Of a stretch of DNA of 49,813 nt, positions 1-49,813 are shown piece after piece. Under the pieces are notes generated by a model. The model made no database searches. It was not told the DNA's origin and saw nothing but the letters and a program-made list of their open reading frames with translations. The stretch's first letter is position 1. Each line of letters begins with the position of its first letter. This DNA is from Helicobacteraceae bacterium (lineage in GTDB: Bacteria; Campylobacterota; Campylobacteria; Campylobacterales; SZUA-545). The stretch covers positions 1 through 49,813 of the forward strand of contig JAIRKM010000068.1 in NCBI GenBank assembly GCA_031260125.1. The letters are read 5' to 3'. The position numbers and the translations under genes are program-made.

Positions 1-2
1 AC

Positions 3-308
3 GCTTACGGCGATGTAACCAACAACGCCGCTATTAACCAGACGGTATCCGCAAGCACTAGTGGTGTCAATAAAATAGTCGGTGGCAGCAGCGGCACCAC
101 TAGCAACAATTTCGCGTTAAGCACAATGACAGTAATCGGAACAGTCAGCGGTAATGCTGGAGCCGCTAAATCCGACGCTGATTTTAAAACGCGATCGACC
201 TATGAGACAGGTCTTGGCTGGAAGTTTGGAAACGACGTTTTGAATCCTTGGAAGATCGACGCAAACAAAAACGACGGCTACCCTTACCTCTACTGGGAGA
301 ATCGGTAG
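3..308 (+). CDS. C-terminal end of a large GLUG-type surface/adhesin protein (5' end outside window)
   Basis: The frame is open from the first bases of the window to the TAG at 306-308, so this is the last 101 residues of a longer protein. The sequence is rich in Gly, Ser, Thr and Asn and ends with the signature TYETGLGWKFGN, NPWKID and YPYLYW. This signature closes many secreted GLUG-repeat or filamentous-haemagglutinin-like proteins. An internal ATG at 126 exists but lies inside the conserved frame and is not a credible start. A near copy lies inverted at 49514-49813. The location is probably cell surface or secreted; the function beyond adhesion or matrix is not inferable from this fragment. 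A hairpin terminator follows at 316-345. Confidence 0.75.
   Translation, partial: AYGDVTNNAAINQTVSASTSGVNKIVGGSSGTTSNNFALSTMTVIGTVSGNAGAAKSDADFKTRSTYETGLGWKFGNDVLNPWKIDANKNDGYPYLYWENR
9..308 (+). repeat. Left arm of a 300-bp inverted repeat (partner 49514-49813)
   Basis: Position p here pairs with position 49822-p on the other strand without any gap. Positions 9-119 are identical to the partner. I count 21 mismatches over all 300 positions, about ten of them in the last 33 bases before the stop codon, and similarity ends at the stop codon. Both arms are coding, in the same frame, and point into the window. The eight bases before position 9 have no counterpart because the window ends on the other side, so the true repeat is probably longer. 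Confidence 0.95.
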
Positions 309-315
309 CTTGCGC

Positions 316-345
316 AAATGGCGGCATAGGCGCCGCCGTTTGTTT
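316..345 (+). terminator. Hairpin terminator after the left surface-protein gene
   Basis: Positions 316-325 (AAATGGCGGC) pair with 332-341 (GCCGCCGTTT) around a six-base loop, with one G-T pair, and the stem runs into a T-rich tail. It lies eight bases after the stop codon, as expected for a factor-independent terminator. Confidence 0.6.
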
Positions 346-472
346 CGCGATCGGCGTTTTTTCAACGCTTCGCGCCGCACGCTACCACGCCGCCCGCGCC
401 GCGCCGCAACAGCGGCGGGGAAGCGCCGCGTTCCTTATTCAGACAAACAATGAAAAATTTTCTGCAAAAGAC

Positions 473-502
473 TTGACAAGCATAGGCTCAATGTTATATA
501 CT
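473..502 (+). promoter_or_regulatory. Sigma-70 type promoter of hsp20
   Basis: A perfect TTGACA at 473-478 is followed after 16 to 18 bases by overlapping -10 candidates TATATA (495-500) and TATACT (497-502). The CIRCE operator begins at 507, on the expected transcription start, so a bound repressor would block initiation. Confidence 0.75.
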
Positions 503-506
503 CACT

Positions 507-533
507 TTAGCACTTGAGACTATTGAGTGCTAA
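507..533 (+). promoter_or_regulatory. CIRCE operator (HrcA binding site)
   Basis: The sequence is TTAGCACTT, nine bases, then GAGTGCTAA. This matches the CIRCE inverted repeat (TTAGCACTC-N9-GAGTGCTAA) at 17 of 18 arm positions. The single difference is the last base of the left arm. Together with the promoter just upstream it predicts heat-shock control of hsp20 by the repressor HrcA. The hrcA gene is not in this window. Confidence 0.9.
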
Positions 534-555
534 ATACAGACATAAGGAGTCTCAG

Positions 556-969
556 ATGACACTGCAAAGATTCGATCCATTTTTGGAGCTGCGCCGCCAG
601 ATCGAGGCGCTCAGCGAAAGGAGCGATTCCGCTCCAAACCTTTCGTCGTTCAGTCCCGCGGTCAACACCCGCGAAAACAACGACGCGTACCTCATCCAGA
701 TCGATCTGCCGGGAGTGGATAAGGACGCTATCACGGTAGACCTCAAGGAAAAGGTTCTCTCCATAAGCGGCGAGAGAAAATTTGAAGAGGAGGTCAAGGA
801 GGAAGACTTTTACCGCCTTGAAAGCCGCTACGGACGGTTTGAGCGGCGCTTTAGCCTACCCGACAACACCGATCCCGAAAAGATCGAAGCCGCTTACAAA
901 AACGGCGTATTAACGCTCACGCTGCCGAAGGTTCAGCCAAAAGGCGCGAAACAAATTTCCGTGCAGTAA
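556..969 (+). CDS. Small heat-shock protein, Hsp20/alpha-crystallin family
   Basis: This is an ATP-independent holdase that binds unfolding proteins in the cytoplasm and passes them to DnaK/ClpB. The 137 residues contain an alpha-crystallin domain from about residue 32 to 125, including the conserved GVLTLTLPK strand. The protein ends with the I-x-V motif (residues 134-136) used for oligomer assembly. The ATG at 556 is chosen because AAGGAG lies at 544-549; an ATG 14 codons upstream (514) falls inside the CIRCE element. The gene is monocistronic, with the convergent recG close behind. Class assignment is firm; the exact paralogue (IbpA/HspA-like) is not resolved. Confidence 0.95.
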   Translation: MTLQRFDPFLELRRQIEALSERSDSAPNLSSFSPAVNTRENNDAYLIQIDLPGVDKDAITVDLKEKVLSISGERKFEEEVKEEDFYRLESRYGRFERRFSLPDNTDPEKIEAAYKNGVLTLTLPKVQPKGAKQISVQ

Positions 970-1003
970 CCGCTTACGCCATACGCTCCGGTGTATGGCG
1001 AAG

Positions 1004-48192: not shown

Positions 48193-48198
48193 ATTATA
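48193..48198 (-). promoter_or_regulatory. -10 element (TATAAT) upstream of eno
   Basis: On the minus strand TATAAT reads from 48198 to 48193, about 50 bases before the eno ATG. No clear -35 box was found. Confidence 0.5.
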
Positions 48199-48305
48199 AA
48201 AGTATGCTTTCGCTCCCGCGCAAGCGTGTGTCTATCTCGCTCAAACGCGCGCCGCTCCCATTGAAAAAGGCGCGAACGCATTGCCCCGCCTTAGCGCGGC
48301 AAAGC

Positions 48306-48311
48306 TATAAT
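48306..48311 (+). promoter_or_regulatory. -10 element (TATAAT) upstream of mqnD-fliQ
   Basis: A perfect TATAAT lies 29 bases before the TTG start at 48341, in the divergent region shared with eno. A TTGCCC at 48281-48286 is a weak -35 candidate at 19 bases. Confidence 0.5.
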
Positions 48312-48340
48312 TGACGGCAATTTATTTGGGAGGTCGCGCC

Positions 48341-49204
48341 TTGCCCCGCTATTTTGTCGCGCACTCGCCCGACGCGGACGATATTTTTATGTTTTACGCG
48401 ATCGCGTTTGGTTGGATCGACACGGGCGATATTGAAATCGACCATAGCGCCGAGGACATAGAGACGCTCAACCGCGCGGCGATCGAAGCTCGATACGACG
48501 TAACGGCGATCAGCTTCGCGCTCTATCCGCTGATCTACAAAGATCACGCGCTGTTGAGAACGGCAGCGAGTTTTGGGCGTGGCTACGGACCCAAGCTGAT
48601 CCGTCGCAAAGACAAGCCGCTCAAACGCGCTTTCAAGGTTGCGTTAAGCGGAGAACACACCACAAACGCGCTGCTTTTTCGTCTTGCCTATCCGCAGGCG
48701 CGGATCATCTACAAGAACTTTTTGGATATTGAAAATGCCGTTTTAAGCGGCGAAGCCGACGCGGGAGTGCTGATTCACGAATCGATCTTAGGTTTCAGCG
48801 ACGATCTGTGCGTGGAGGCGGAGATATGGGATATCTGGCGCGATCTGACCGGTGGCGATCTGCCTCTGCCGCTAGGTGGAATGTGTCTAAGGCGATCGCT
48901 GCCGATCACAAGGGCGATCGAGCTAGAAACGATACTGACAAAGGCGGTTAAAGTCGCGGTGTCAAACAAGCGGACGCTTGCGCGTATGTTGATCGAGCGC
49001 AATCTGGTGCGCGTCGATTGCGCGAAGCTGGACAAATACCTTTCGCTCTACGCCAACGAGGATTCAATCGACTTTGACGACACGCACAGGGCTGGAATTG
49101 AGGCGCTGTTTCGGCTGGGGTATGACAGCGGAGCGTATGCTAAGCCGCTGACGCTAGATTGTGCGCTGATACCGCGTGAATATCAACATTACAGGAGCGG
49201 CTGA
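48341..49204 (+). CDS. mqnD: 1,4-dihydroxy-6-naphthoate synthase (MqnD)
   Basis: It converts the cyclic futalosine product of MqnC into 1,4-dihydroxy-6-naphthoate for menaquinone. The protein has 287 residues and a periplasmic-binding-protein-like fold. It opens with FVAHSPDADDIFMFYA, the version of the MqnD motif found in Campylobacterota, and contains the GEADAGVLIHE and LPLPLGGMCLRR stretches. The start TTG at 48341 has GGGAGGT at 48328-48334; an upstream ATG at 48311 overlaps the -10. fliQ follows one base after its stop. Confidence 0.93.
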   Translation: MPRYFVAHSPDADDIFMFYAIAFGWIDTGDIEIDHSAEDIETLNRAAIEARYDVTAISFALYPLIYKDHALLRTAASFGRGYGPKLIRRKDKPLKRAFKVALSGEHTTNALLFRLAYPQARIIYKNFLDIENAVLSGEADAGVLIHESILGFSDDLCVEAEIWDIWRDLTGGDLPLPLGGMCLRRSLPITRAIELETILTKAVKVAVSNKRTLARMLIERNLVRVDCAKLDKYLSLYANEDSIDFDDTHRAGIEALFRLGYDSGAYAKPLTLDCALIPREYQHYRSG

Positions 49205-49205
49205 T

Positions 49206-49478
49206 ATGGAAGGCGAATTGGTAATGCTCGCAAGCGACACCTTCAAAACGGCGCTGATGATCGCCGCGCCGATGCTGCTAGGGGGCTTGCTCGCGGGGCT
49301 GTTGATAAGCATATTTCAAGCCACGACGCAGATCAACGAGATGACGCTTAGCTTTGTGCCAAAAATTCTGGTGGTGGCAAGCGTGCTGATCCTGACGATG
49401 CCGTGGATGATGAACATCATGATCGACTTTACCGTTAGGGTATTCGGCAAGATCGCCACCTTTCCGCTCGCCGGTTGA
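49206..49478 (+). CDS. fliQ: Flagellar export apparatus protein FliQ
   Basis: This is an inner-membrane component of the flagellar type III export gate with FliP and FliR. The protein has 90 residues, the standard size, with two membrane helices (about 14-36 and 53-75). The conserved stretch is LISIFQATTQINEMTLSFVPK. The ATG at 49206 follows the mqnD stop by one base, with AGGAG at 49192-49196. In C. jejuni fliQ also lies close to eno, as I recall. It shows that the organism is flagellated. Confidence 0.95.
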   Translation: MEGELVMLASDTFKTALMIAAPMLLGGLLAGLLISIFQATTQINEMTLSFVPKILVVASVLILTMPWMMNIMIDFTVRVFGKIATFPLAG

Positions 49479-49483
49479 TCGGT

Positions 49484-49501
49484 GCCGGCGGTACCGCCGG
49501 C
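49484..49501. terminator. 18-bp perfect palindrome between fliQ and the convergent surface-protein gene
   Basis: GCCGGCGGTACCGCCGGC is its own reverse complement and would form a very stable GC hairpin. It lies six bases after the fliQ stop and 12 bases from the stop of the convergent gene, so it may terminate both transcripts. A U-tract is nearly absent, so the call is tentative. Confidence 0.5.
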
Positions 49502-49513
49502 GCTCTGGTTTAA

Positions 49514-49813
49514 CTACCGATCCTGATAGTAGAGATATGGCAGACCGCCGTTTTTGTTTGCGTCGATCTTCCAAGGGTTCAAAGCGTTGTTTCCAAACTT
49601 CCAGCCTAGACCTGTCTCATAGGTCGATCGCGTTTTAAAATCAGCGTCGGATTTAGCGGCTCCAGCATTACCGCTGACTGTTCCGCTTACTATCATTTCG
49701 TCTAACGCGAAATTGTTGCTAGTGGTGCCGCTGCTGCCACCGACTATTTTATTGACACCACTAGTGCTTGCGGATACCGTCTGGTTAATAGCGGCGTTGT
49801 TGGTTACATCGCC
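49514..49813 (-). CDS. C-terminal end of a second large GLUG-type surface/adhesin protein (5' end outside window)
   Basis: The minus frame is open from the window edge to the TAG at 49516-49514, giving the last 99 residues. The residues are nearly those of the left copy and the ending is GLPYLYYQDR in place of GYPYLYWENR. The Gly/Ser/Thr/Asn-rich sequence and the TYETGLGWKFGN...NPWKID signature mark a secreted repeat protein. An internal ATG at 49696 is not a credible start. The gene converges on fliQ across a palindrome. Confidence 0.75.
   Translation of the reverse strand, partial: GDVTNNAAINQTVSASTSGVNKIVGGSSGTTSNNFALDEMIVSGTVSGNAGAAKSDADFKTRSTYETGLGWKFGNNALNPWKIDANKNGGLPYLYYQDR
49514..49813 (-). 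repeat. Right arm of the 300-bp inverted repeat (partner 9-308)
   Basis: It is the gap-free inverted match of 9-308 with 21 mismatches. Positions 49703-49813 are identical to 9-119. The window ends inside the identical part, so the repeat continues beyond it. Confidence 0.95.

Follow-up and report, generated by a model that had tools for sequence, protein, structure and literature searches.

Phase variation of surface proteins combined with gene conversion is best known in vertebrate pathogens, in which it is usually explained by immune escape. In Helicobacter pylori, the hop genes are switched by CT tracts, undergo gene conversion, and evolve in concert at their 3' ends (PMC3960876), and the slippage tract of oipA is a CT repeat in the 5' coding region (PMC10564699). 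In Campylobacter jejuni, homopolymeric tracts in contingency loci change the frame of genes for surface structures (PMC13317227). The genes described in this work resemble the hop adhesins (babA/babB, sabA/sabB, oipA, and hopZ) in being paralogous surface genes with 5' tracts, conversion, and concerted 3' ends. The hop products are outer-membrane proteins, whereas those found here are lipoproteins that have a lipobox and either GLUG or RCC1 repeats; moreover, the tract in most leaders of this genome is poly-C and not the CT of hop. No homology is claimed. The frame-shifting homopolymeric tracts are also reminiscent of the simple-repeat contingency loci of C. jejuni. However, the C. jejuni tracts mostly act on capsule and lipooligosaccharide, while here one leader serves two unrelated lipoprotein families.

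The window, i.e., the whole stretch of DNA that was analysed, is the complete contig C45 (49813 bases) of an 87-contig, 1.64-Mb assembly. Its edges carry two inverted arms of 300 nt (9-308 and 49514-49813), which are 93% alike without gaps; the inverted adhesin-gene 3' ends described by the sequence-only reading are thus present, and their outer 111 bases are identical, as it had stated. No other inverted pair of at least 40 nt occurs within the window, and the longest exact inverted match is 111 nt versus about 16 nt expected by chance in 49.8 kb. Each arm is the open 3' coding end of a gene reading inward, with the stop codons at 308 and 49514. The features of the window and its edges are as follows:

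1-119, no strand: left terminal 119-mer (assembly junction), made of 8 left-specific bases and the shared 111-bp block, ending on the last base of the block
3-308, plus strand: 3' end of the left GLUG-family lipoprotein gene (101 codons and stop), with its 5' part absent from the assembly bin
9-119, plus strand: left copy of the 111-bp block, identical in both arms and in contig C44
309-49513, no strand: segment between the arms, broken up in the sister species
514-969: hsp20, a gene of the inter-arm segment adjoining the edge
48311-49204: menaquinone biosynthesis gene, adjoining the edge in the inter-arm segment
49176-49478: export gene fliQ, adjoining the edge in the inter-arm segment
49514-49813, minus strand: 3' end of the right GLUG-family lipoprotein gene, with its 5' part on contig C44 (1-1151, minus strand)
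49695-49813, no strand: right terminal 119-mer, an exact dovetail with the end of contig C44
49703-49813, minus strand: right copy of the 111-bp block, at the right edge

The similarity ends at the stop codons of both arms, and a mobile-element boundary was rejected for this reason. In left-arm coordinates, six differences fall at 120-136, none at 137-214, and 15 at 215-300, and they are significantly clustered (P 0.0008 versus uniform placing), with 11 replacement and five silent codon changes. The proposed gradient from identical to divergent sequence did not hold, because the differences form two patches (120-136 and 215-300) with 78 identical bases between them. A separate direct repeat of 189 nt (41404-41592 and 42906-43094; 77% identity, 95% over the first 82 bases) sits at the 3' ends of two adjoining minus-strand genes.

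By comparing both ends of the 87 contigs, with four masked contigs left out, 16 pairs were found to dovetail by exactly 119 bases, five to share exactly their last 119, and one to overlap by 103. The exact 119-base overlaps are the footprint of a de Bruijn graph and the signature of MEGAHIT at k=119. Public genomes of relatives contain records named k119_ under JAIR-JAIT accessions, and for termite-gut metagenomes with accessions JAIRJQ-JAITXW, MEGAHIT was used with a maximum k of 119 and a contig minimum of 1000 bp (PMC11257099). We infer that the genome of the window belongs to this set. Another candidate source of the genomes, PMC9137090, was discarded because its assemblies were made by SPAdes to k=71. 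The caution that the arrangement may be an assembly boundary was right, since the window ends exactly where the contig ends. The right terminal 119-mer consists of the 111-bp block, on whose first base it starts, and 8 right-specific bases; the right arm runs on through this dovetail into C44, which therefore carries the 5' part of the right-hand gene. No contig continuing the left arm was found among the compared contig ends, nor was the 5' part of the left gene found on C19, its expected left neighbour. Other partial matches at contig ends have mostly arbitrary limits, unlike the terminal 119-mers of the window. The simplest reading of these positions suggests that some reads also lead from the left body into the right tail, along a path of 127 bp that is not long enough to survive as a contig, but MEGAHIT local assembly or library chimaeras may have left the same hint.

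The ends were suspected to be members of a dispersed family, and a search for more copies of the 3' module bore this out. Tails or bodies of the family occur on C45 (two), C44, C15, C36, C39, C20, C84, and C1, about nine whole or partial GLUG genes in all. The longer proteins match the Pfam Glug domain (PF07581), with 22 matches above the curated cut-off in the genome (on C84, C36, C1, C44, C15, C39, and C20), so they belong to the GLUG family; the 101-aa tails of the window, which sit behind the repeats, gave no match to PF07581 alone. Of ten GLUG copies, nine are no more than 600 bp away from the end of a contig, a zone that holds 6.4% of the assembly. Because of this position and the 119-base junctions, the inverted repeat enclosing core genes is in fact a pair of genes from a dispersed family at which the assembly broke, and it illustrates cleanly how the edge of a contig can mimic a large inverted repeat. 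An orphan fragment of the tail module (53% protein identity) was also observed at 2914-3036 of C44, at a distance from any intact family gene. In one relative (JAISQB010000084.1, 1-12309), at least nine genes for GLUG lipoproteins stand in tandem within 12 kb, without slippage tracts.

The protein encoded by the C36 frame was confidently modelled (mean pLDDT 87.5) and is a repeat protein rich in strands, apart from an uncertain stretch of 44 residues at its start. Its best sequence and fold matches are to the GLUG region of IgA1 proteases (PDB 6xjb, 7uvk, and 3n6z), which points to a beta-helix fold. The match to 3n6z also covers a C-terminal cap. The likeness to the IgA1 proteases is confined to the repeat region, and no Pfam peptidase domain was detected in the GLUG proteins scanned. 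By its resemblance to beta-helix proteins and its lipoprotein character, the family may have an adhesin function, and its members may bind something. A literature search on GLUG found nothing useful.

If the arms formed an active inverted repeat, recombination between them would invert the 49.2-kb segment in part of the population. Their inverted orientation and 111 identical bases fit this, and the positions of the terminal 119-mers agree with reads running from the left body to the right tail, which is one of the two inversion junctions. However, the reciprocal junction, from the C44 body to the left tail, should break contigs elsewhere and is not indicated, and this missing link argues against a plain inversion. 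The family is also many-copied, so this pair is not special, and the block between the arms is not conserved. In the sister species G002, window positions 437-14366 lie on one contig, where hsp20 is followed after 1.65 kb by the C19 orthologue, and positions 48338-49479 lie on another, followed after 1.7 kb by the C76 orthologue; two further contigs correspond to about 22.3-30.4 kb and 30.6-34.2 kb of the window. Neither of the orthologous borders in G002 has a GLUG gene. By this comparison, the inter-arm segment is not a conserved unit, and the view that the arm pair specially encloses a housekeeping block finds no support, as in the sister species the block is divided and both genes are missing. 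The repeats do not specifically bound the 49-kb segment, because the family is dispersed and both border genes are missing from the sister species. Only the sister species is informative here; in the other relatives, synteny is too rearranged to show the order around C45. We consider the inversion quite unlikely. Elsewhere in the window, a stretch of about 90-160 nt at 15656-15812 matches seven other places in G002 at 71-83% identity, and it represents a dispersed sequence.

The tails themselves are mosaic. Among the four tails L (left), R (right), C15, and C36, 32 informative sites were available, and all 22 of those at 11-209 pair L with R. The grouping then changes twice:

238-287, plus strand: mosaic block, six sites pairing L with C36 and R with C15
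295-300, plus strand: mosaic block, four sites pairing L with C15 and R with C36

The last ten informative sites alone give a permutation P of 0.009, although neighbouring sites are not independent. These informative-site blocks were used because, in a run-length conversion test, only the two window tails reached clear significance. The 5' halves also form a mosaic: the identity of C84 to C1 is 98-100% over some stretches but drops to 57% over others. In tails and 5' halves alike, the grouping of the paralogues thus depends on the part compared, and gene conversion among the family tails is well supported by these patterns. The suggested shuffling of adhesin C-termini between copies is therefore upheld by three grouping blocks (11-209, 238-287, and 295-300). 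Recent duplication only, in which the arms would be alike through recent copying without conversion or switching, could account for the 22 sites that pair the two tails, but not for the two further groupings, the clustered arm differences (P 0.0008), the mosaic 5' halves, or the slippage tracts placed in leaders, and it is very unlikely. Chimaeric assembly could also have placed two tails on one contig or produced the mosaic tails, a suspicion to which a short-read metagenome assembly that breaks exactly in this GLUG family is open. Yet the grouping switches occur in shared stretches whose length is well below 119 bp and which should not mislead a k=119 graph, and both tails pass unbroken into unique sequence of one contig, so that an assembly chimaera is very unlikely.

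At the 5' ends, a common leader was observed in nine lipoprotein genes of the GLUG and RCC1 types (on C1, C84 with two genes, C44, C8, C14, C17, C69, and C76). It includes a ribosome site, start, poly-C tract, signal peptide, and lipobox, and the upstream region is also common to several of these genes. Lipoboxes in the leaders read LLMIGC, SLTGC, LFVGC, and LLIVGC, so that by pattern the products are predicted lipoproteins. The products of C84:256-1554 and C8 are RCC1-repeat proteins, not GLUG, and the genes on C14, C17, C69, and C76 are taken as the same type because they have the same sequence after the lipobox. The poly-C tracts are 9, 13, 13, 14, 14, 15, 16, 16, and 16 long. Only C1 is in frame, and the other eight, including the right-hand gene of the window (C44), are out of frame. 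The in-frame share of 1/9 is not different from chance, with a third expected, and for this reason it was rejected as a sign of one-at-a-time expression. The eight out-of-frame genes stop after 8-37 codons; behind the tract, however, the open frame extends for 314-407 aa in five of them, as would be expected if these genes were switched off and not dead. It is 190 aa in C8 and 95-96 aa in C14 and C17. The OFF state of C44 is not certain, because an additional in-frame GTG is present, though lacking a good ribosome site. The GLUG gene on C36, whose tract is (TC)12, is likewise out of frame, and in several relatives CT tracts of 17-31 were found in both in-frame and out-of-frame states. The poly-C leader cassette was not found in the 20 relatives searched. 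With a long tract after the start codon and copies both in and out of frame, these loci have the features of phase-variable genes. The 5' slippage tracts are most likely the simpler route to surface variation, more so than the arms; they lie outside the window, and the sequence-only reading missed them for that reason.

At C44:1351-1893, an unrelated frame of 180 aa is preceded by the same upstream region and ribosome site as the poly-C leader, but it has no tract. More long poly-G/C and CT/AG tracts are present at C52:303, C56:10921, C64:2057/4657/7880/9880, C41:2628, C27:10250, C77:13648, and C86:6939, several of which lie close to where a long open frame begins. Similar frames of more than 700 aa occur on C52 and C56, and C64 has a cluster of four dinucleotide tracts.

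Taken together, we hypothesize with considerable confidence that the arms are the 3' ends of two dispersed, mosaic GLUG surface-lipoprotein genes in a probable termite-gut member of the Campylobacterales, where the k=119 assembly breaks, segments have been moved by recombination or conversion, and most members are probably switched by slippage. The MEGAHIT assembly would break at the paralogous repeats, leaving the window to end inside family genes. Ectopic recombination or gene conversion would move segments between members, keeping some tail parts nearly identical and reshuffling others, and it probably continues today. Slippage of the poly-C (or CT) tract between start codon and lipobox would switch most members, so that at any time some copies alone would be in frame, and tract lengths presumably change in living cells. 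A more far-reaching version, in which the leader is shared by the GLUG and RCC1 families, segment swaps continue, and some of the sampled cells are already recombinant from left body to right tail, either by conversion or by the 49-kb inversion, is doubtful. If this architecture does occur in what is probably a lineage of insect-gut symbionts, its purpose could be asked without adaptive immunity, for which phages, protists, and attachment niches are the candidates.
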